Virus record (IMG/VR): IMGVR_UViG_3300023180_005599
Location: 1-33,539 of that record
Origin: a virus
DNA: 33,539 bases
Reading direction: 5' to 3' (one strand)
Part shown: piece after piece, positions 1-30,019 of the stretch
How positions within the stretch are numbered: the stretch's first letter is position 1
How the letters are laid out: each line of letters opens with the position of its first letter
Notes under the pieces: generated by a model
Databases searched by the model: none
What the model was told of the DNA's origin: nothing
What the model saw: the letters and a program-made list of their open reading frames with translations, nothing else
Translations under genes and position numbers: made by a program

Positions 1-1157
1 TGAAACTCTTTTACAAATCTATTAAACACTGCATGAAACGAAACTATTGTGGTTACCAATAGTATCCAACTCACATCCCATAACTGTAAATGTCTTGTGA
101 ACACAAAGTATGAAGCATAACTTGAACTTGCCCATAATAAAATCACAGTCGCACCTATCAGCCAATATGGTGCAAACGCCGCCATTACAATTAATAATAC
201 TGCTAATATACCTGCTGTGACATATTCAACAAATGTTGCATAGTCTGTTCGCACAATAGAGTCACCATTTATAATTGTTTGCAAACTCACTGCTATTGGA
301 GTGTGACTGTATGCTTCACCGTTGGGTGTTGCTATGATAGATCCTATTCCTTCTGCTGTGATACCAAGTATCACTGTTTTGCCTTGCACAGATTCAAAAC
401 TGTCTGTAACACTTATTGTTTCAAACTGTTTGTTCCAACGCAACCATATCTGTCCGTTAGCATCTGTGTTGATCACAGGATATCCAGGAACACGAACTGC
501 TTGTACACCACCTGATCCTGCTTTGACTTGATAACTTGGAGCACCTGTGGCCACACGTATTGTTTCAATGGCTATGGCAGGATATGTTTCACCATCAACT
601 GTAACAATCAAAGGCACACGTCTTACCACACCATCTATCTCTGGTGCTGTATTGATCACTCCTACACCATCTGCATTTAATCCAAACAATTCTATAGGTC
701 CCAACATGCCTGGCCATTCAAACAACCAAGACAGCGGATCTCCTATTTTGGCAACACCACGTGGCACTGCATTTTTATTTGTTTGTGTTGTACCTACCTG
801 TGCTATCACAACACCATTGTCAACTAGTGCTTCTGCAAGATCCATATCACCACCCAGTCTGTCTTGTTCTGAAAAAAGTATAGGTAAAATAATAAGTCCT
901 GCACCTGCTTCACGCAATTGCCATATAATGTCTGCTAGGATTGTTCGTTTCCATGGCCATTGTCCGTATTGTTCAATTGACTTTTCATCCAGCTCAACTA
1001 TCACAACATCATTACTAACTGTTGGTGTGTCATATTTTTGAATTAGATCAAATGTTTTTAATCTAGCAGTCTGCTTTACAAAAGGATCTGAAAATCCCCA
1101 TAGCATTAAAACTGCAAGTGTTAAAAATGCTACAGTCCAGTGTGTTAAATATTTCAT
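1..1157 (-). CDS. CHASE2-domain membrane protein, C-terminus cut by window edge
   Basis: The reading frame is open from an ATG at 1157 to the window edge (385 complete codons). Residues about 8-22 form an N-terminal membrane anchor. Residues about 35-300 match the CHASE2 extracytoplasmic sensor pattern, with VVIVELDEKSIEQYGQWPW near residue 51, then a GAGLIILPILF segment and a PNGEAYSHTPIAVSLQ segment. Three closely spaced hydrophobic helices follow (about 310-380), the usual CHASE2 arrangement before a cytoplasmic output domain. That output (cyclase, kinase or phosphatase in known relatives) would lie to the left and cannot be seen. The start lies 1 nt after the stop of the 108-residue membrane protein, so the two are probably co-translated from the late promoter at 1491-1498. 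CHASE2 is well established as a periplasmic sensory domain; its ligand is unknown. CHASE2 proteins often sit beside FecR proteins, as here. Confidence 0.85.
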   Translation of the reverse strand, partial: MKYLTHWTVAFLTLAVLMLWGFSDPFVKQTARLKTFDLIQKYDTPTVSNDVVIVELDEKSIEQYGQWPWKRTILADIIWQLREAGAGLIILPILFSEQDRLGGDMDLAEALVDNGVVIAQVGTTQTNKNAVPRGVAKIGDPLSWLFEWPGMLGPIELFGLNADGVGVINTAPEIDGVVRRVPLIVTVDGETYPAIAIETIRVATGAPSYQVKAGSGGVQAVRVPGYPVINTDANGQIWLRWNKQFETISVTDSFESVQGKTVILGITAEGIGSIIATPNGEAYSHTPIAVSLQTIINGDSIVRTDYATFVEYVTAGILAVLLIVMAAFAPYWLIGATVILLWASSSYASYFVFTRHLQLWDVSWILLVTTIVSFHAVFNRFVKEF

Positions 1158-1158
1158 A

Positions 1159-1485
1159 CTAGCCTATTAGTACTAGTGTTGTTTCACCTGAAATTAAACT
1201 GACTAACACACTTACAATTAACCAAACTAAAAGTGTATAACCAACCCACCAATACCATTTTTTACCTGTTAAGAATTTTTTAGTTGCACGTTTTGTGCCT
1301 AATGGATCTTTTGATGCCGCCCAGCCAAATACTCTGTCACTGCCTGAAAACGGAGGCGTCTTCCACCATACCACAGGAATCATCAGCCAAAATATCCAGC
1401 CTTCTCCTGTGCCCCATGCGGCCCATATTCCTACAGCAAGTATGCCCAGCAAATACCATCCAATGTTTTGTTTTAGATGTTCCAT
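1159..1485 (-). CDS. small three-helix membrane protein
   Basis: This protein has 108 residues, is Trp-rich, and has hydrophobic segments at about 9-24, 29-41 and 77-98. A basic cytoplasmic-type loop (GTKRATKKFLTGKKW) lies before the last helix. I do not recognise a family. A longer reading frame extends to 1554, but the ATG at 1485 is preferred because a perfect TATAAATA late promoter lies exactly 5 nt before it; the longer form would run through the promoter and the end of the curlin-like gene. No Shine-Dalgarno is visible, consistent with a leaderless message. It sits between a curlin-like gene and the CHASE2 gene, so a role in assembling or anchoring that system is possible but unproven. 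Confidence 0.75.
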   Translation of the reverse strand: MEHLKQNIGWYLLGILAVGIWAAWGTGEGWIFWLMIPVVWWKTPPFSGSDRVFGWAASKDPLGTKRATKKFLTGKKWYWWVGYTLLVWLIVSVLVSLISGETTLVLIG

Positions 1486-1490
1486 ACTAG

Positions 1491-1498
1491 TATTTATA
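1491..1498 (-). promoter_or_regulatory. T4-type late promoter, perfect TATAAATA, leaderless position
   Basis: The minus strand reads TATAAATA, then CTAGT, then ATG at 1485. In T4 the late motif spans -13 to -6, so the predicted start of transcription is the A of the ATG. It would drive the 108-residue membrane protein and the CHASE2 gene separately from the curli-like genes upstream. Confidence 0.8.
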
Positions 1499-1505
1499 TG
1501 ATGTT

Positions 1506-2993
1506 TTAATTTTGTGTTACTGTGGTTGTGCCACAACCTGACGAATTCACACAACTTTGTGTTAATGAATATGTTTGATTACTGGAACCTGTTTGATCTA
1601 GATCCAGTGTTGATGAATAACCACTCATGTCAATGGTTGCTGACATGTTGCCAGAACCGTCTTGGTTTACATCTATGATTTGATTACTGCCTGCTGTGAC
1701 ATCTAAAAAATGTTCACCAGTGCCTTGCTGTACAAGATCAATGTCATTTGAAGAACCATTTATGTCCACAAACATGATCTTGTCGCCATCATCTTTTTGA
1801 TCCATATACATGATATTGCTGTTGCCATCAACATCAACACTCATAAAATGACCTTCATCACCAACACCCATACCATCGTTTTCCTGTAGAACACCTACTG
1901 TGTTGTAATTACCTGTGACATCAAGTATCAATCTAGAATCACCAGCATCGTCTACATTGTCACCTTGTCTCACAGTTAAATTATTATTATTACCATTCAC
2001 ACCCATTAACACCACATTGTTGTCACTAGTTGAACCAGCATTGTTACCTTGTGTGATTGACACAGTGTTGTCATCACCTGATATCACAGCATCAGCAATA
2101 GTAGAACTTGTGGATGCGGTACCTGCCACAAGATTGTCATTGTCATACTGCACAATGTCCAAATCCAAATTGTCACCTGCTTGATCTATATAAATTGCAT
2201 TACCATTTGATGTGATGTTTCTTGTGTTGTTGACCGTGGTTTGTTGTGCTGAACTTATGCTTGATGTATATGTAGGAGTTGAAGAATACAATCCTTCTTC
2301 TTCCGCTATGCTTGTCAACAACGCATCCATATTATTATTGGCAGTAGAGCCGCCTAGAGTTCCTAAAAACTGTCCGTAACCAAATGTCACATAAACTGCA
2401 CCGCCATTTGAACCATAATCCCATTTGTGCCACATTGAAAGGCTAGTATTGTTAGCAGTGTTTGTTGCCACGATTTCACCGCCAGTTATAGAATACATAT
2501 ATCCGTCTACACCAACCAAATAGTTTTCACTTGATGTGCCTGAAGCATAATCACCGTATCTGATGCTTTGATAGAGATCATTGGCATTAACCGTAGCAGT
2601 ATATGATCCTACCTGCATCTTGTTTTCAATCAATGATTCAATGTTACCGATTCTGTTGGTTGCTCCATTTTCTGCGGCAATAATTAATATGCCGCCGCCA
2701 CTCACAAATGAGTCATAGTTTGTTCTACAGGTGCTACCACAGTTTGAGTTACCAACAATATCAATTACCATTTCTTTACCTGATAACAATGATGAACTAA
2801 CTGTGCCACTTGTGCTACCTGTTACAGTAAAACCTAAACCTTCGTAATGACTCTTGAGGTTGCTGTACTGAGAACTTTCGTTATTAGAGTAAAATATGAG
2901 TAGATCATTGGCTCGGGCAGTGTTGCTAATTGCCATAAAAACAACAATGCCAAACAGTATAAAAGCCAATCTTGTTATAAATCTTTCAAACAT
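1506..2993 (-). CDS. curlin-repeat protein with N-terminal Rossmann/GATase-like domain
   Basis: This secreted protein has 495 residues. A signal peptide ends near residue 28 (ISNTARA before ND). Residues about 30-232 look like an alpha/beta domain of the glutamine-amidotransferase-like or ThuA-like type: a strand-rich LLIFYSNN start, MVIDIVGN, a GGGILIIAAENG loop and a closing GGAVYVTFGYGQFLG. No catalytic Cys-His pair is obvious. From about 265 to the end there are curlin-like repeats: Q-x-G-x-x-N-type units such as IYIDQAGDNLDLDIVQ, VSITQGNN, LTVRQGDN, IDVNQDGSGN and LDLDQTGSSN. The C-terminus has a Cys pair (SCVNSSGCG). Its first repeat is nearly the same as one in the 236-residue protein encoded at 4090-4800, suggesting that they co-assemble. 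The start ATG overlaps the FecR gene stop (TAATG). Role as fibre subunit or fibre cap is inferred. Confidence 0.75.
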   Translation of the reverse strand: MFERFITRLAFILFGIVVFMAISNTARANDLLIFYSNNESSQYSNLKSHYEGLGFTVTGSTSGTVSSSLLSGKEMVIDIVGNSNCGSTCRTNYDSFVSGGGILIIAAENGATNRIGNIESLIENKMQVGSYTATVNANDLYQSIRYGDYASGTSSENYLVGVDGYMYSITGGEIVATNTANNTSLSMWHKWDYGSNGGAVYVTFGYGQFLGTLGGSTANNNMDALLTSIAEEEGLYSSTPTYTSSISSAQQTTVNNTRNITSNGNAIYIDQAGDNLDLDIVQYDNDNLVAGTASTSSTIADAVISGDDNTVSITQGNNAGSTSDNNVVLMGVNGNNNNLTVRQGDNVDDAGDSRLILDVTGNYNTVGVLQENDGMGVGDEGHFMSVDVDGNSNIMYMDQKDDGDKIMFVDINGSSNDIDLVQQGTGEHFLDVTAGSNQIIDVNQDGSGNMSATIDMSGYSSTLDLDQTGSSNQTYSLTQSCVNSSGCGTTTVTQN

Positions 2994-4087
2994 TACTTTT
3001 GTATGATGTTGATATCATTACCACCACCTTCTCCTATAATAAAATCTCTTGTAGTAAAATCATCTTGTTGTAGATCAAGTGTGTAACTGTAATTTTTATT
3101 CAGTCTTAACTGTACCACACTAGACGATCCTTCACGTCTAAAAAACCAATTTGATCCTTGATCTAGCAATATGATATTGCCTGGTAGTTGTCCTACTTTT
3201 TGTTCTTTTTTTACAAACACATCAGTTAGTTCACTCAAAAATTCTGCCGCTAATATTTTGTTTAATTGTGCTAGTACATCTCCCAAAAAGTCACCTGCTA
3301 AAAAATCAATGTCTAGTTCTGTTTGCCACTGCTGATCATCTTGTGCCAGTAGGTCTTGGTCTAGCACATCAATTTCTAAAAAGTCTAATCCTAATATGTC
3401 TGCTACAGATCGAACAGATTGTTCATCTTCTTGTTCGTCTATTTCTCTTGGTGGAGACACAATCAACAGATTACTCAACAGTGATTCATCTATTTCTAAT
3501 GTTATTGCAGGTGTGGGTCTGCGTTCTGCTACTTCAACTCTGGTGGCTTGAAATGCTTGATTTAGTATGACCTGTCCCATGTCTGAATCTACTGTGATTT
3601 CACCTACCACACAGTTGCCATTTGAATTACAACTGGGCAATAAAATAATTGTTGATCCGCCTAACTCGTCCACAATCATAGCAAAGTCTGTGCCTCTCAC
3701 ACCAATTGTTGCTGTGGGTGTTTTGATTTTAACATTGTCTTTGTAGTCTTTGGCAATTTGACCTGATGCGTATCTCACTGTGCCCAATGCGGCTGTGAGT
3801 GTTAGTCCACCTTGATTGTTGGCTGGATCATACACAAACTCGTCTATGATCAGTTTTGAATGTTCTGTGACTTCTACTCTGGTGTTGTCAATAAAGTCAA
3901 TGGCTGTTCTGCCTTGACCTGTCATTACTTCATCATAGGAAAACACATCAAGACTCTGCTCAAGATCAATTTTAGCACCATCTGTGCGTTTGATCTTGCC
4001 TTTGCCTTCTAGCTCGCTCACAGCACCAATACTGGCATATGCTGACCAAGATACTAGAATCAGAACTATTGTTAACAAAGATCTCAC
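2993..4087 (-). CDS. secreted FecR-domain protein
   Basis: This protein has 364 residues with a signal peptide (cleavage near SWSAYA, residue 19). Residues about 25-160 form a FecR domain: GKGKIKRTDGAKIDLEQSL, then FSYDEVMTGQGRTAIDF, LTAALGTVRYASG, and the hallmark TPTATIGVRGTDFAM around residue 130. The rest is acidic, with a DEQEDEQS stretch, and has no family I recognise. FecR domains are periplasmic; in iron uptake they act as anti-sigma regulators, but stand-alone secreted versions beside CHASE2 proteins are common in bacteria. There is no cytoplasmic anti-sigma part and no adjacent sigma factor. The start is GTG, just after the stop of the 236-residue curlin-like gene; no ATG lies nearby. 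Translational coupling is likely, because no good Shine-Dalgarno is visible. Confidence 0.8.
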   Translation of the reverse strand: MRSLLTIVLILVSWSAYASIGAVSELEGKGKIKRTDGAKIDLEQSLDVFSYDEVMTGQGRTAIDFIDNTRVEVTEHSKLIIDEFVYDPANNQGGLTLTAALGTVRYASGQIAKDYKDNVKIKTPTATIGVRGTDFAMIVDELGGSTIILLPSCNSNGNCVVGEITVDSDMGQVILNQAFQATRVEVAERRPTPAITLEIDESLLSNLLIVSPPREIDEQEDEQSVRSVADILGLDFLEIDVLDQDLLAQDDQQWQTELDIDFLAGDFLGDVLAQLNKILAAEFLSELTDVFVKKEQKVGQLPGNIILLDQGSNWFFRREGSSSVVQLRLNKNYSYTLDLQQDDFTTRDFIIGEGGGNDINIIQK

Positions 4088-4089
4088 TG

Positions 4090-4800
4090 TTAGTCACTTT
4101 GTGTTATGTCTACATCAAAACTGTCGCCATTAACTGTTAAGTCAACTGTGTTGTCGTAGATACCACTTTGAGTGATATCAATTGTTCCACCTCCACCATC
4201 TACATCTAATGTGATAGTGTTTCCTGCTGAATCACCGTTGCCAGTTTGTGAAGTTGTTAGTGCAACACCTTCATCTGAATTAGCACTGGTTGTGGCCAAT
4301 GAAGAACTATTGTTGATGTCAACTGTTAGTGCGGCACTTTGACCGTTAACTGTTGAATTTATAATACTGTTGTCACCTGTGACTGTGAAAGCCACTGTTG
4401 AGCTGTCTGAGTCAGCAGTTTCACCTATACGTATTGTATAGTCGTTGCTGTCACCAGTATTAGTAATATTCAGTGTCACAGTGTCACAGTTTCCTGCTGA
4501 TGTGCTAGAACATAACAAGTCTACTGTGTTTGATCCACCGGTAAATGTCCAAGTACCTGTATATGTGTCACCTTTGATTGTTGCATCAATTGTGTTGTAA
4601 CTACCAGTTTGTGTAATTGCAAACGTCATACTGTCACCTTGCAGTGTGGCATCAGTTGTTGAATCACCAAATTCGTTATCTTGACCATCTTGTGTGATAT
4701 CTAAATCCAAATCATCGCCTATCTGATCAACATAAATGTCATTGGCTAACGATAATGTGCTAACAAAAGATAACAGTAATATCATTATCCATTTTTTCAT
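4090..4800 (-). CDS. curlin-repeat (CsgA/CsgB-like) secreted fibre subunit
   Basis: This protein has 236 residues with a signal peptide ending LSLA before NDIYVDQ. The mature protein is very rich in Thr, Asn, Asp, Ser and Gly, almost free of Lys and Arg, with alternating beta-strand patterns. Repeat units resemble curlin Q-x-G-x-x-N: IYVDQIGDDLDLDITQ at 22-37, FAITQTGSYNTIDATI near 64, TSQTGNGDSAGNTI near 185 and IDITQSGIYDNTVDLTV near 205. Two Cys occur near residue 97-105. It lies directly downstream of csgG with a strong Shine-Dalgarno (GAGAGG, 7 nt from ATG), so high expression is likely. In curli, such proteins are exported through CsgG and polymerise as amyloid. Repeat spacing is less regular than in E. 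coli CsgA, so amyloid formation is inferred, not shown. Confidence 0.75.
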   Translation of the reverse strand: MKKWIMILLLSFVSTLSLANDIYVDQIGDDLDLDITQDGQDNEFGDSTTDATLQGDSMTFAITQTGSYNTIDATIKGDTYTGTWTFTGGSNTVDLLCSSTSAGNCDTVTLNITNTGDSNDYTIRIGETADSDSSTVAFTVTGDNSIINSTVNGQSAALTVDINNSSSLATTSANSDEGVALTTSQTGNGDSAGNTITLDVDGGGGTIDITQSGIYDNTVDLTVNGDSFDVDITQSD

Positions 4801-4812
4801 AATTTTCCTCTC

Positions 4813-5625
4813 TTAACGACTTGGGTACTCTACCAAACTTGGTTGAGTTTGATATTTCCATAAGCCTTTTTTCTCTCCTTGTTCAACTAATTCGCAAACT
4901 GCCTGTTCAATTGCGGCTCTTACTGCATAGTTGACTGGTTCATTGATTGCTATACCAGATTCAATCTCAATTACTTTGGTTCCTAAATCTAGAAATTTAA
5001 AAACATCAGCACCTGATGAATGACTGGCAATGTCTTTTTGTGTGGCAACAGAAAGAAGAACTTCTCCTGTGCTTACTGAAACAATACGCATAGACACTGT
5101 TACTGTGTCAACACGATACTGTGTTTTGGCGCCAATACCTAAATATCGTGCACCGGATCCTCCAGTGACTACGTTTGAATCATAGCCTACTACAGCACCC
5201 TCTAAGATTAAACCAGCAAACAATAAAGGTTTTAACTTTTTGTCTTTTTCTTGTTCATACTGCTCTCTAGTTGATCTAATTAGTTGTCGTTCCTTTACAA
5301 GATTGTCTAAACCTATACGTTCTACAACTTGGAACCATGTGTTGTTTCCAATTTCTTGTAAAGCCTGAATTACCCAAACTTCAGCACCTTGTGTGACTGC
5401 TGAGCTGAGCTGACTGAAATTTGTGTTTGGTTTACGTTGGCCAGTTTTATCTTGAAAACTGTAAACTGCTATTGTAATCTTTGGTCCATCCAAAGATGGA
5501 AATTTTTCAAATTCTTGTTGTAATGGCGCTGGTGAAATTGCTGGCTCTGTGTATCCCGACAGTCCGGCATGTGAAGCACAACCGGCCAAAAGTGCCAGCA
5601 TCATGAGTAAGAACAAATGTCTCAT
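4813..5625 (-). CDS. csgG: CsgG-like outer-membrane lipoprotein channel
   Basis: This protein has 270 residues, close to the 277 of E. coli CsgG. It has a lipoprotein signal with lipobox LLAGC (Cys 16). Family landmarks are visible: TIAVYSFQDKTGQRKPN near 50, SSAVTQGAEVWVIQAL, WFQVVERIGLDNLVKERQ, LLFAGLILEGAVVGYDSN, RYLGIGAKTQYRVDTVTVSMRIVS and GEVLLSVATQKDI, the last two corresponding to transmembrane beta-hairpin regions. CsgG forms a nonameric outer-membrane channel that exports curlin subunits. It is downstream of csgF (2-nt gap) and upstream of a curlin-like gene, giving a compact export operon. CsgG homologues are known in some marine phages. The function here could be fibre export or, alternatively, permeabilising the outer membrane for lysis or solute entry. 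Confidence 0.93.
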   Translation of the reverse strand: MRHLFLLMMLALLAGCASHAGLSGYTEPAISPAPLQQEFEKFPSLDGPKITIAVYSFQDKTGQRKPNTNFSQLSSAVTQGAEVWVIQALQEIGNNTWFQVVERIGLDNLVKERQLIRSTREQYEQEKDKKLKPLLFAGLILEGAVVGYDSNVVTGGSGARYLGIGAKTQYRVDTVTVSMRIVSVSTGEVLLSVATQKDIASHSSGADVFKFLDLGTKVIEIESGIAINEPVNYAVRAAIEQAVCELVEQGEKKGLWKYQTQPSLVEYPSR

Positions 5626-5627
5626 TC

Positions 5628-6104
5628 TTAAAATCCAAAATCTCCAACTGGTACTGTTAGAGTAGTAATTGTTCCATCTGCTTCTGTGATTCTAATTGAT
5701 ATTTCACCTAGGTCTACATCTTTTTCCCAGTAGATTGTGGCACCTTCAATTTCAGCAGTGCCTGTGGTTTGTCCGCCTGATGCAAACATGTTGTCCACTA
5801 ACTGTTTGGATAGATTGGCGTAGATTCTAGATTCCACATTGGCAATAAATTTATTGATAACTTCGTTTTCTTCATCTCGAGCCGCATCTTTTAATGCTCG
5901 TGCTATGTCATCTTCTATTTCTTTTTTTCTTGTGTATTGCAATTGCTCTAGAGCCAACACATGATTTGAATAGCCGTTACCTGAAAAACTAGGGTTTGAA
6001 AATTCTTGTGTGAGTTCACTGGCTGTTACAGACCCAGTCAGAGATATAGACAATAAAAAACAAGTCATGTGCTTGTATAAATTATGTTTAATTTTGTTTG
6101 TCAT
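5628..6104 (-). CDS. csgF: CsgF-like curli assembly protein
   Basis: This protein has 158 residues. After a signal peptide (about 1-28, ending VTASE) the mature start LTQEFSNPSFSGNGYSN resembles the CsgF N-terminus (F-x-NP-x-F-GGN), the segment that inserts into the CsgG channel and forms its second constriction. The middle is a helical charged region and the C-terminus is a beta region ending TTLTVPVGDFGF, as in CsgF. E. coli CsgF is 138 residues, so this one is slightly longer. An alternative start at Met13 (6068) would give a tighter signal peptide. It is the first gene of the csgF-csgG-curlin run. A candidate late promoter lies at 6146-6153, giving a leader of about 36 nt. Confidence 0.9.
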   Translation of the reverse strand: MTNKIKHNLYKHMTCFLLSISLTGSVTASELTQEFSNPSFSGNGYSNHVLALEQLQYTRKKEIEDDIARALKDAARDEENEVINKFIANVESRIYANLSKQLVDNMFASGGQTTGTAEIEGATIYWEKDVDLGEISIRITEADGTITTLTVPVGDFGF

Positions 6105-6145
6105 TTGTATTCTTTGCTCTGCTCATAGGTTTGTTAATATAACTG

Positions 6146-6153
6146 TATTTAAA
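6146..6153 (-). promoter_or_regulatory. candidate late promoter TTTAAATA for the curli-like operon
   Basis: The minus strand reads TTTAAATA followed by CAGTTAT, the same downstream bases as at the 11811-11818 promoter. Predicted transcription start is near 6140, 36 nt before the csgF ATG. No sigma70 promoter was seen in this gap (6105-6183), which otherwise holds nothing recognisable. Confidence 0.55.
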
Positions 6154-6183
6154 GTAAAAGTTGCGTTTTTTATATACTATGTT

Positions 6184-6381
6184 TTAAAAAGCACAAGACA
6201 CAGAAGCTTTAGGAGAGACTTCTATGCTGTCTGTGATCTGTTCTACTGTGCTTTGATTTTGAGGTTGTTGTTGAGTTTTTTCTTTTTGTTTGATGTCTAC
6301 ACCAGGATCAAAATCACACTGGTTTTTAGTCACACATCCTGTGACAAATAGTATTAGAAATAATAAAACAAGTTTTTTCAT
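6184..6381 (-). CDS. small lipoprotein (possible o-spanin)
   Basis: This protein has 65 residues with a lipoprotein signal MKKLVLLFLILFVTGC (lipobox VTGC, Cys 16). The mature part is short, Gln/Lys-rich and has a second Cys near each end. The gene begins 9 nt after the tRNA-Ala CCA end, so it is probably cleaved from a tRNA-containing transcript. No Shine-Dalgarno is visible. Small outer-membrane lipoproteins of phages are often the outer subunit of a two-gene spanin, but the partner is not evident; the neighbouring membrane protein at 6487-6726 is not of the usual i-spanin type. It could equally be an accessory of the curli-like operon that follows. Confidence 0.7.
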   Translation of the reverse strand: MKKLVLLFLILFVTGCVTKNQCDFDPGVDIKQKEKTQQQPQNQSTVEQITDSIEVSPKASVSCAF

Positions 6382-6389
6382 AAAAATAT

Positions 6390-6465
6390 TGGTGGAGGAT
6401 AGCGGGATCGAACCGCTGACCTCCTGAATGCAAATCAGGCGCTCTCCCAGCTGAGCTAATCCCCC
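6390..6465 (-). tRNA. tRNA-Ala (anticodon TGC)
   Basis: The full cloverleaf is readable on the minus strand: acceptor GGGGGAT pairs with ATCCTCC, D arm TTAGCTCAGCTGGGAGAGC, anticodon loop TTTGCAT with TGC, T arm with GGTTCGATCC, and encoded CCA. The G3-U70 wobble that identifies tRNA-Ala is present. It sits alone between a membrane-protein gene and a lipoprotein gene. Confidence 0.95.
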
Positions 6466-7861: not shown

Positions 7862-7936
7862 TGGCTCCTTGGGCAAGATTCGAACTTGCGACCGATCGAT
7901 TAACAGTCGATTGCTCTACCGCTGAGCTACCAAGGA
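7862..7936 (-). tRNA. tRNA-Asn (anticodon GTT)
   Basis: The cloverleaf is readable on the minus strand: acceptor TCCTTGG pairs with CCAAGGA, D arm GTAGCTCAGCGGTAGAGC, anticodon loop CTGTTAA with GTT, T arm CAAGTTCGAATCTTG, discriminator G and encoded CCA. It lies 4 nt after tRNA-Thr and is probably co-transcribed with it. Confidence 0.95.
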
Positions 7937-7940
7937 ATAG

Positions 7941-8016
7941 TGGTGCCGGCAGAGAGATTCGAACTCCCGACCTGACGATTACAAATCGCCTGCTCTACCA
8001 ACTGAGCTACGCCGGC
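7941..8016 (-). tRNA. tRNA-Thr (anticodon TGT)
   Basis: The cloverleaf is readable on the minus strand: acceptor GCCGGCG pairs with TGCCGGC (last pair G-U), D arm GTAGCTCAGTTGGTAGAGC, anticodon loop TTTGTAA with TGT, T arm GGGAGTTCGAATCTCTC and encoded CCA. It is the first tRNA of a two-gene unit behind its own sigma70 promoter. Confidence 0.95.
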
Positions 8017-17058: not shown

Positions 17059-17254
17059 TAGACTGTCTACCACTTTTCATGTTAGCACACCAATGATACA
17101 TTTTAGCACGTTCACCACTGGATTTTTTTGCTTTTGTTCTCAAACTTGTAACTGATCCTTTGCAACTGGCACCTGCACGTTTTACACGCCCTGGTCTGCT
17201 TTTGCCTTTTACTTTACCGTCAGCAAAGTTTTCTACTAGCTCAGCAAATCTCAT
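17054..17254 (-). CDS. small basic protein with capsid-targeting-like N-terminus
   Basis: This protein has 66 residues and is strongly basic. MRFAELVEN carries an L-x-E site at 6-8. The body (KVKGKSRPGRVKRAGASCKG, SVTSLRTKAKKSSGERAKMY, HWCANMKSG) is a Cys-containing module I recall from many marine T4-like phages, with the Cys pair probably structural. Its ATG overlaps the stop of the upstream fusion gene (ATGA), so it is translationally coupled, not leaderless. Probably a DNA-associated internal head protein. Confidence 0.72.
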   Translation of the reverse strand: MRFAELVENFADGKVKGKSRPGRVKRAGASCKGSVTSLRTKAKKSSGERAKMYHWCANMKSGRQSK

Positions 17255-19056
17255 TTTTTTCTACCGGAGCAGTGTGCTTTTTGTGAAAAACCTTTTGGGT
17301 TGCTACAGTTAATAGCATCTTTGTATTTTTTGCTCCATTTTTCAAGCAATTCTAAATTGTGTTGTATTGCTTCTAGTCTTTCTTTGACCGGAGGCATATA
17401 ATGATTTTTTCTGCCTTTGGTTAATAAAGGTAAAGTTTTCCAAGTTTTAAACCAGTCTAGTGTGCCTGGTTTTGAATTCTTTTTCATTTTTTGCCACTTT
17501 TTAGTTCCTGGCAATGTTGTCAAACTTAATTTTCCATCTTGGTTTTGAAATTTTAACTCATCTGATTCTAGCACATTGATTAACTTTTTTGTTTTTTGTC
17601 CACTTTGTAACTTTGGTGGTACACCATCTTTGGTTACATTGAATCCCATTTTTGCTGATTGTTTTTTGATAGCATCAACACCTACATCTACTGTGGTGTT
17701 AATTCCTTTAACAACTCTGCCACCATGCTCAACCATAGTGCCTGTGTTGACTGCTTGGTTAACTTTGGCAACTAGTTCAGGTGTCCACTCGTTGTGTTTT
17801 TCCATGTATTGCTGAACCAGTTTTAATGCTGTAGAAATTTTTGAAACTGAATCTTGATTTGCTTGATATCTTATGCCAATACCATTTTTGGCTTGCCATC
17901 TTTCTATGTTGCTTGGTTTGTCATCTATTAATATATTTGGTGCTCCGGTGGTTTTATCTTTAGCATAACTTTCTTTTCTGCCTGTGATAATAATATCTTT
18001 AGGATCAAACCCGTGCTCTTTGAGCCAAGCAATTTTATGCTTTTTGGAATTTTCATGATCATTTCTCAGCGGAGAACTGCATATGTTCCATGTGCCACCG
18101 GTAAAAGATTTCACTGCGGAAATCAATTGATTGGCTGTAGGAAATACTGGTAGTGTAGAAAAGAAATCAGTGCCGGCAATTGCTGTGATACTGTCTTCAA
18201 CATCAAATTTGCCGCCTGGTGCTTTCCAATGGTCTACACCTCTAAACTTTGCAAGAGCAGAAAAAAAGTCAGCAATAACACCATCCATGTCAACATAAAC
18301 CAATGGCTTGTTCTGTATATCTTCTTTTACTGTTTCAGGATTTTTATCCCAAGAGCCTGTTTTTCTATATTGCTGTAATCTGTCTTTGACTTTTTGATTT
18401 AGATTTGGTTCAATTTTTTCTGGTGGACGTTTTTTAACTGTGTAAGTTTTAGGTCGTGTTGTAGCAAATCCTAAAACTTCTGTTATACCCATACCAGCTC
18501 TAACATCGTTGTACATTTCTTTAGCAGAACTTTGATCAACAACACCTCTTTTAAAGCCTGGCTGTGTTTTACCATTTTTGTCTTTCCAATCTTCAAATTT
18601 TCCTTCAGCGGCAAGTTTCTTTAGTTTACTTGCACTCATACCAGCAACACCTTCTGCATCAGGATCTCTTTCTCCAGCACTGACTACTTTGATACTATCA
18701 AATTTAAAATCTTTTCCGTTGTATTTTGGTAAAAATTCTTGAAACTGTCCAACTCTATCTGATCCGACAACCATTATCACATGCGAATAGCCTTTTTTTT
18801 CTAAGGCTTGCAATGCTCCTATTATATTAGTAACGCCCGGATCTCCTATCTGCACTCCTGTAAAACTCTGTTTAGCATATTTGAGTTTTTGCTGAAATGA
18901 TAAAGGGTCAGTCTTTGGTTTTTGTGTATGGCTCAAAAACACATAAGGTTTTCCTGGTTGACGTTTGATCATGTCAACAAGTTTAGCATGACCCACAGTA
19001 GGTGGGTTCATTCTACCAAATGTAAAAACTGCTGTGTTTAAATCAGTGGCTTTCAT
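17251..19056 (-). CDS. nucleotidyltransferase / HAD 5'-nucleotidase fusion with basic C-terminus
   Basis: This protein has 601 residues in three parts. Residues 1-160 form a cytidylyltransferase-like domain: FTFGRMNPPTVGHAKLV with the T/H-x-G-H nucleotide-binding motif, and GMSASKLKKLA (139-149), equivalent to the ISxT/SK(M/L)R signature. Residues about 250-420 form a HAD phosphatase: VYVDMDGVIADFF with nucleophile Asp256 and Asp258, ICSSPLRND as the Ser/Thr motif, and ILIDDKPSNI as the Asp motif, resembling deoxyribonucleotidases. The C-terminus is basic with a Cys-containing tail (INCSNPKGFSQKAHCSGRKK) like those of the small head proteins nearby. Acting on nucleotides or cofactors such as NAD is plausible. 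A 19-nt leader with AAGGA is predicted from the late promoter at 19081-19088. Confidence 0.85.
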   Translation of the reverse strand: MKATDLNTAVFTFGRMNPPTVGHAKLVDMIKRQPGKPYVFLSHTQKPKTDPLSFQQKLKYAKQSFTGVQIGDPGVTNIIGALQALEKKGYSHVIMVVGSDRVGQFQEFLPKYNGKDFKFDSIKVVSAGERDPDAEGVAGMSASKLKKLAAEGKFEDWKDKNGKTQPGFKRGVVDQSSAKEMYNDVRAGMGITEVLGFATTRPKTYTVKKRPPEKIEPNLNQKVKDRLQQYRKTGSWDKNPETVKEDIQNKPLVYVDMDGVIADFFSALAKFRGVDHWKAPGGKFDVEDSITAIAGTDFFSTLPVFPTANQLISAVKSFTGGTWNICSSPLRNDHENSKKHKIAWLKEHGFDPKDIIITGRKESYAKDKTTGAPNILIDDKPSNIERWQAKNGIGIRYQANQDSVSKISTALKLVQQYMEKHNEWTPELVAKVNQAVNTGTMVEHGGRVVKGINTTVDVGVDAIKKQSAKMGFNVTKDGVPPKLQSGQKTKKLINVLESDELKFQNQDGKLSLTTLPGTKKWQKMKKNSKPGTLDWFKTWKTLPLLTKGRKNHYMPPVKERLEAIQHNLELLEKWSKKYKDAINCSNPKGFSQKAHCSGRKK

Positions 19057-29065: not shown

Positions 29066-30019
29066 TTACAAAACATAATCATAGTGCTTTCGTAAATCAG
29101 TTTTATACCAACACGCAGTTCTTAATAGTTCTCTAGGTTTGTCTTTTAGTATTGTTGGTCTTCTATGAATTGTGAGAGTTTGATCCATTAAACAAATATC
29201 ACCCTGCTTCCAAAGATGCTTATATGTATATCTATCAGATTCAATCCATTCTTTATATATTTTCCAATACAGTTCTTCACTGTTTGCTTCATCTGAAAAT
29301 TTATGAACTTCATACGGAGTAAAAAAGATACCTTTTGTGCCTAGCGGATGATTTGGCACAAAATTGTGTTCTTCAATTATGCCTCTGGATTTTTTATATA
29401 ATCCTTTATGATCTTCACTGATGTTTTTGGTGTTTTTTATATCTCTTGTGTTTCTGTTTCTGCTAATGTCTTCAAAAACATTTTTTCCATATATTTCTTC
29501 AAATTTTGGTTCCCATGTTGTTTGAATTCTGCCCAATCTTCTAGTTGGGTCTAAAACTATTTTTAATTGTTCGTAGTAGTCTTTGGTTTGTTGATCCAGT
29601 GTTTGCCAATATGGAACACTGTTACAAAACCAGGTTTCAGTGTCGTAAGTGATTGTTTTAGCAAATAAGCCAACCATTTCTTCAGCATCACCAACTGGTG
29701 TAACATTTGTGTGCCAATCTAGTTCATAATCAGCAAACAGTCCTTGGTTGTTTTCATCAACTTTTTCATTAGTGACACGCCAGAACAAATCGCTGTGTTC
29801 ACTGTCCGTACACCAAATATCAGGTGACAAATGATAACCATATTCCAATGACCATTCAGCAAATTGTTCTGGCGTTGCTCCGCTGTTTTCTATAACCACA
29901 ACACCATATGTGCCAGTTTCTTTTGCTGTGTTTACTGGATCAATTTGATCAATTGAAGTATCTTTGTATTTGACACCAAGTATTTGATTATGATCATTTG
30001 TTATAAATTGTCTATTCAT
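29066..30019 (-). CDS. TauD/gamma-butyrobetaine-hydroxylase-like oxygenase with Asn in the Fe triad
   Basis: This protein has 317 residues. YELDWHTNVTP (His103, Asn105) occupies the place of the TauD W-H-T-D motif; GDICLMDQTLTIHRRPTI (His285) and LLRTACWY (Arg300) complete the C-terminal part. As in the 25874-26686 protein, the metal-binding acid is Asn. A central, poorly conserved, charged insert (about 150-230) makes it longer. It is driven by a sigma70 promoter with an AAAGG Shine-Dalgarno. Substrate unknown. Confidence 0.82.
   Translation of the reverse strand: MNRQFITNDHNQILGVKYKDTSIDQIDPVNTAKETGTYGVVVIENSGATPEQFAEWSLEYGYHLSPDIWCTDSEHSDLFWRVTNEKVDENNQGLFADYELDWHTNVTPVGDAEEMVGLFAKTITYDTETWFCNSVPYWQTLDQQTKDYYEQLKIVLDPTRRLGRIQTTWEPKFEEIYGKNVFEDISRNRNTRDIKNTKNISEDHKGLYKKSRGIIEEHNFVPNHPLGTKGIFFTPYEVHKFSDEANSEELYWKIYKEWIESDRYTYKHLWKQGDICLMDQTLTIHRRPTILKDKPRELLRTACWYKTDLRKHYDYVL

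Follow-up and report, generated by a model that had tools for sequence, protein, structure and literature searches.

A phage-borne curli-type export module with an exchangeable curlin-repeat cargo gene

A 33,539-base fragment of a marine bacterial virus from IMG/VR (the window) encodes a curli-type export module together with its own curlin-repeat cargo, as the first-pass annotation had claimed and as Pfam and PHROGs matches and synteny now support. The module is real, conserved and already described; the window instance is a variant whose second curlin-like protein carries an amidotransferase-like head, and the gene between those of the FecR and CHASE2 proteins is an exchange slot. We propose, with a probability of roughly 0.55, that the module is a late phage operon through which the infected cell exports a curli-type fibre with exchangeable cargo, the FecR protein serving as its cell-side partner. 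Relative to the available portions of the three papers that describe such modules, the exchange slot, the FecR architecture, a bacterial operon counterpart and the position of the late promoter are new.

The module comprises seven nearly abutting genes, all on the minus strand, within positions 3 to 6104 of the window (Table 1). This co-directional run had been called from the open reading frames and is borne out, with Pfam supporting CsgG, CsgF, FecR, CHASE2 and the second curlin-like protein. An Rfam scan returned tRNAs only.

Table 1 Features of the curli-type module, in window coordinates
Feature	Position	Strand	Description and support
csgF	5628..6104	-	158 aa, signal peptide; Pfam PF10614 E=1.1e-14; HTVC008M orthologue annotated CsgF
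csgG, outer-membrane pore lipoprotein	4813..5625	-	270 aa, lipobox LLAGC; Pfam PF03783 E=5.6e-56
Curlin-like protein 1	4090..4800	-	236 aa; signal peptide, curlin-type strands directly after
FecR-domain protein	2993..4087	-	364 aa, GTG start, signal peptide; Pfam FecR 5.8e-9; phrog_37870 4.6e-117
FecR domain (aa 21-184)	3536..4027	-	AF2 block, pLDDT mostly >90
FecR low-confidence acidic tether (aa 205-297)	3197..3475	-	AF2 block, pLDDT 34-64
FecR C-terminal curlin-like beta domain (aa 299-364)	2996..3193	-	AF2 and conservation
Curlin-like protein 2, exchangeable cargo slot gene	1506..2993	-	495 aa; Curlin_rpt 1.7e-5; slot exchange
Curlin 2 head (aa 30-242), glutamine-amidotransferase/GIFT-like fold	2268..2906	-	Foldseek
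Curlin 2 curlin-repeat beta-solenoid (aa 264-495)	1509..2204	-	AF2 strands; profile matches
Small membrane protein	1159..1485	-	108 aa; no Pfam match
CHASE2 sensor-cyclase, cut by window edge	3..1157	-	385 aa shown; Pfam CHASE2 3.1e-41
CTTTAAATA, degenerate T4-type late-promoter-like site, 5' of csgF	6146..6154	-	Motif comparison with relatives

A CsgG pore, a CsgF accessory protein and curlin-repeat subunits within one operon place the locus among curli or type VIII secretion systems, and in profile comparison the solved E. coli CsgG matches residues 1-261 of the window CsgG (1.2e-51). The two proteins initially called curlin-like fare differently. Curlin 2 passes the Pfam Curlin_rpt cut-off, whereas curlin 1 falls below it (E=0.0019, 18.5 bits against a cut-off of 20.7) and has a motif count within the range of shuffled sequences (P=0.11); we take curlin 1 as curlin-like because its orthologue in Methylophilales phage Melnitz exceeds the cut-off at 26.0 bits and because of synteny. 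The reported absence of CsgE and CsgC holds, as neither was detected in the window and four relatives by searches with a positive E. coli control, and neither window curlin has an evident N-terminal targeting segment of the CsgA type. These three absences set the window apart from E. coli curli, with which it shares the CsgG and CsgF families and curlin repeats and to which it adds FecR, a CHASE2-cyclase and cargo with heads. CsgE is not required for curli membership, as five other alphaproteobacterial genomes with CsgF lack it too (G187, G352, G070, G308 and G099).

The same genes in the same order make up the type VIII module of pelagiphages (PMC9599517), as seen in Pelagibacter phage HTVC008M and in Melnitz, whose CsgG proteins are 58% and 54.5% identical to that of the window (tblastn) and whose FecR proteins are 51-53% identical. 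The window differs in having an extra small membrane gene ahead of CHASE2, in showing no histidine kinase gene beside csgF and in its slot head, which is amidotransferase-like where HTVC008M has PA14 and Melnitz has none. Three papers have described this phage module, so the central inference of the first-pass annotation was already in print. One reported CsgF and CsgG with unassigned neighbours and proposed sibling capture (PMC7029224); another, on Melnitz, read the pore as a lysis device and saw no clumping of infected cells, which counts against a fibre (PMC9004378); the third, from 2022, listed for pelagiphages csgF, csgG, csgA/B, FecR, another csgA/B and adenylate cyclase, and suggested roles in superinfection defence, sibling capture and import (PMC9599517). 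The latter report also removes the supposed novelty that such phage genes are usually discussed without fibre subunits.

In both HTVC008M and Melnitz the module adjoins tail genes, which would suit a reading of the curlin-like proteins as virion or tail parts. The N-terminal signal sequences, the lipoprotein pore and the membrane cyclase point instead to the cell envelope, and we consider this the least probable of the readings weighed here.

Two scans of viral contigs yielded about 160-165 loci, which match the window best and so do not sample phage curli modules at random. The order csgF-csgG-cur1-fecR-cur2-CHASE2/AC is complete in 81 of them, while most of the others are truncated contigs or have no recognised cur2, and in one the cyclase lies on the other strand. 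This recurrence in independent contigs and two cultured phages rules out an assembly artefact. It also upholds the proposed gene order on relatives, apart from the small membrane protein gene, which was detected only in the window and in its near relative L088 among the viral loci compared.

From csgF to the slot gene, median gaps between genes are about -30 to +1 bases. Of 88 non-redundant relatives, 58 carry the canonical T4-type late-promoter motif NATAAATA 5' of csgF, mostly 10-30 nt ahead of the start, where shuffles give 12.8. Among these relatives it is not found upstream of csgG, fecR or cur2, and a smaller excess appears ahead of the cyclase gene (20/69 versus 6.0); the window itself has only the degenerate form. 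The small gaps and the motif at the head of the run suggest that the module may be transcribed late as one unit. The near relative G583 encodes a T4-like polymerase and clamp loader; capsid and terminase genes were not found in that contig.

The first-pass annotation missed that curlin 2 is built from two domains, with an exchangeable head. In its C-terminal half we count seven curlin motifs against 0.84 in shuffles (none of 2,000 shuffles reaches seven), the Curlin_rpt match spans residues 440-469, and the predicted solenoid places strands at steps of 11-12 residues. Its repeat profile matches the solved curlin-repeat protein 8c50 and, weakly, CsgA (8enq). The head is modelled as a beta-alpha-beta fold (mean pLDDT 72) for which Foldseek returned the N-terminal domain of IFT52 (1.2e-4) and class I glutamine amidotransferases. 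All 84 members of this amidotransferase-like head family in IMG/VR adjoin curli genes; no member away from curli genes was found in IMG/VR or in phage records, apart from a single structural hit, 18% identical, to an autotransporter protein of a phage.

Across relatives, the position between the FecR and CHASE2/cyclase genes is occupied by head-less curlin repeats, by a mini form of 112-146 aa, by PA14-headed proteins (Pfam 2.7e-6 in HTVC008M and 4e-10 in contig L010) or by the amidotransferase-like-headed form of the window, and some relatives have no recognisable slot gene. PA14 is not mentioned in PMC9599517, and nowhere do the available portions of PMC7029224, PMC9004378 and PMC9599517 speak of the second curlin gene being exchanged. 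On both sides of the slot, the DNA of contigs L077 and L071 is 97.5-98.7% identical over thousands of bases. The slot proteins of these two contigs are the same up to residue 51, signal peptide included, and differ thereafter, one body combining PA14 with curlin repeats and the other having curlin only. The window and contig L008 display the same pattern of exchange between flanks that are 82-89% identical. Furthermore, in 79 pairs with FecR identities of 70-85%, which are not independent of one another, median identity is 0.70 for csgF, 0.66 for csgG, 0.76 for cur1 and 0.76 for the cyclase, against 0.13 for the slot.

Such swapping indicates that diversifying exchange acts on the exported product itself; it therefore speaks for a function in display towards the outside and makes a bare pore less likely. 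For Melnitz, CsgG and CsgF were proposed to form a timed, pinholin-like lysis device (PMC9004378), with which a late-promoter motif is in keeping. A lysis pore, however, would leave unexplained why diversification is so much faster in the cargo slot than in the pore, and curlin-like cargo is nearly always present in the module; we regard this reading as improbable.

The first-pass annotation grouped the FecR and CHASE2 products as sensor proteins. That label suits the CHASE2 protein, which is part of a membrane cyclase: relatives carry a Pfam Guanylate_cyc domain, and the window copy ends at the window edge before that domain. Its counterpart in L088 is complete, with 675 aa and a cyclase domain whose catalytic motifs are intact, and FxD(I/L)xGFT and KYxGDxxM (or close variants) occur in all viral cyclases compared, L088 included. 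The label suits the FecR protein less well, as its modelled architecture looks more like that of a fibre anchor or partner than that of an iron regulator.

After its signal peptide, the FecR domain is the only family match in this protein. No anti-sigma part or further transmembrane segment was found in it and no sigma gene among the module genes, so the protein lacks the hallmarks of a FecR anti-sigma regulator. The full model (mean pLDDT 78) ends in a domain with strands near residues 313, 324, 335, 346 and 357, an 11-residue period predicted at pLDDT 80-92. Q341 and Q363 are present in all 44 non-redundant sequences and N357 and G352 in 42, and a curlin-type motif lies within the last 14 residues of 144 of 149 sequences, compared with 3% of windows from the protein body. 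In hhalign comparisons with curlins the tail scores above 100 of 100 column shuffles at low probability, with other FecR segments nearly equal. As this profile homology is not significant, we claim a similarity of architecture and not shared descent.

These features bear on proposals that nutrients or cofactors are taken up through the pore and that FecR is a regulator linked to iron (PMC7029224, PMC9599517). The FecR family name and the lack of a CsgE gate fit uptake; the missing anti-sigma and transmembrane parts and the conserved curlin-like tail do not, and the cargo slot is left unexplained, which makes this reading highly improbable.

Part of the FecR domain superposes on 5ix9 (Foldseek probability 1.00, rmsd 1.0 A, 28% identity over 61 columns, E=7.2e-3), with a weak sequence match over residues 18-90 (E=0.088). 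The entry is a cell-surface anchoring domain deposited under an antifreeze protein, and we take it to be the N-terminal region that anchors the Marinomonas ice-binding adhesin. Adhesins of the LapA type are held in their pore by a periplasmic retention module (PMC13090378). By analogy, FecR may play a role similar to such a module. The window module differs from LapA-type adhesins in lacking type I secretion and an RTX adhesin, and the proposed pore is CsgG.

FecR and cyclase were reported not to be part of bacterial T8SS operons (PMC9599517). Two Caulobacteraceae MAGs (L279 and L280) contain csgF-csgG-curlin-curlin-FecR-CHASE2/cyclase in one run, with other genes flanking both sides, and outscore the other alphaproteobacterial operons examined on every phage module profile. 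As in the window, their genes form a single run and their FecR proteins end in a curlin-like motif; unlike the window, they lie on bacterial contigs, with both curlins before FecR and no slot between FecR and cyclase. Among FecR proteins of bacterial contigs (L167 onward), 7 of 81 match a looser tail pattern, and the ending is clean in just the two proteins with a link to curli genes. CsgF scores above its cut-off in 6 of 385 sampled genomes of the same class as the Caulobacteraceae MAGs. The G187, G352, G070 and G308 regions hold csgF-csgG with curlin-like genes and lack FecR and cyclase, and the G099 region has no profile matches to the phage module. The idea that FecR and CsgE exclude each other in bacteria is unsupported, given that all five of these CsgF-positive genomes lack CsgE, and FecR is not a simple CsgE substitute, because CsgE is also missing where four regions show the operon without FecR.

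FecR genes beside CHASE2-cyclase genes and away from curli are common in bacteria, and in Burkholderia a FecR-LysM protein and a CHASE2 histidine kinase form a biofilm operon (PMC5192318). This widespread adjacency, together with the absence of the usual periplasmic partners CsgE and CsgC, would fit a FecR that is wholly a periplasmic monitor or chaperone, its strands binding curlin before export and its domain reporting to the CHASE2 cyclase, with the fibre exported but not anchored by FecR. On the other hand, anchoring accounts better for the long tether and for the resemblance to an adhesin anchoring domain, and the bacterial genomes that lack CsgE, four of them with regions devoid of FecR, weaken the argument from missing partners. 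We consider a purely periplasmic FecR possible, though rather unlikely.

In our preferred reading, a late-expressed operon for an exported fibre, the steps of export, polymerisation, display, anchoring and signalling that we infer from these features would run as follows. The operon would be expressed late in infection, CsgG and CsgF would form an outer-membrane pore, and curlin 1 would be the conserved fibre subunit. The slot protein would join the fibre through its curlin repeats, with or without a head, and a PA14 or amidotransferase-like head would be displayed outside by the fibre. FecR is probably the cell-side partner that holds the fibre: its folded domain would be kept in the periplasm in the manner of an adhesin retention module, its tether could reach through the pore, and the curlin-like strands at the C-terminus may join or nucleate the fibre. 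With FecR, the CHASE2-cyclase may read the state of the fibre or anchor and make cAMP. A fuller version, in which marine T4-like phages deploy a curli display with swapped head cassettes, FecR as both retention anchor and curlin nucleator, and signalling by the CHASE2 cyclase, is offered tentatively and at less than even odds.

The most likely benefit to the phage would be an altered surface of the dying cell, through competitor exclusion or the capture of neighbouring cells. Near-identical phages that differ in the cargo gene only provide a ready natural test. Should FecR act as an anchor, the label 'iron regulator' that this family routinely receives would have to be reconsidered in fibre operons.

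The secreted-looking proteins of three of the compared loci (L039, L059 and L074; 636-664 aa), encoded in the interval from the exchangeable curlin slot gene to the cyclase, had no match in Pfam and carry F as the C-terminal residue, as in outer-membrane beta-barrels. The lipoprotein-like ORF adjoining csgF in the window is weakly matched to Rz-like spanins (E=0.014).

Coordinates of additional features in the window and compared loci
Feature	Location	Detail
Secreted-looking protein	L039:14017-15924	curlin slot gene/cyclase interval
Secreted-looking protein	L059:8786-10759	curlin slot gene/cyclase interval
Secreted-looking protein	L074:13957-15948	curlin slot gene/cyclase interval
Lipoprotein-like ORF, 65 aa	window 6184-6381	directly upstream of csgF
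tRNA-Ala gene	window 6390-6465	
tRNA-Asn gene	window 7862-7936	
tRNA-Thr gene	window 7941-8016	
601-aa protein	window 17251-19056	cytidylyltransferase-like and 5'-deoxynucleotidase parts
TauD-type dioxygenase	window 29066-30019	Pfam 2.4e-22
CsgG-family protein	L004:6866-7756 (Brevundimonas phage Kabachok)	Pfam 1.5e-17

Jumbo phages, exemplified by Kabachok, encode a distant and separate CsgG-family protein; the two nearby genes searched in Kabachok had no Pfam match. The phage-type module is also present on three short contigs (L165, L166 and L169) within MAGs named Flavobacteriaceae, Pirellulales and Pelagibacter; these contigs are probably of phage origin and placed into bacterial bins. The 1.5-kb record OR851715.1, labelled 'Salmonella phage' and encoding a csgG 42% identical to that of the window, probably represents host DNA.
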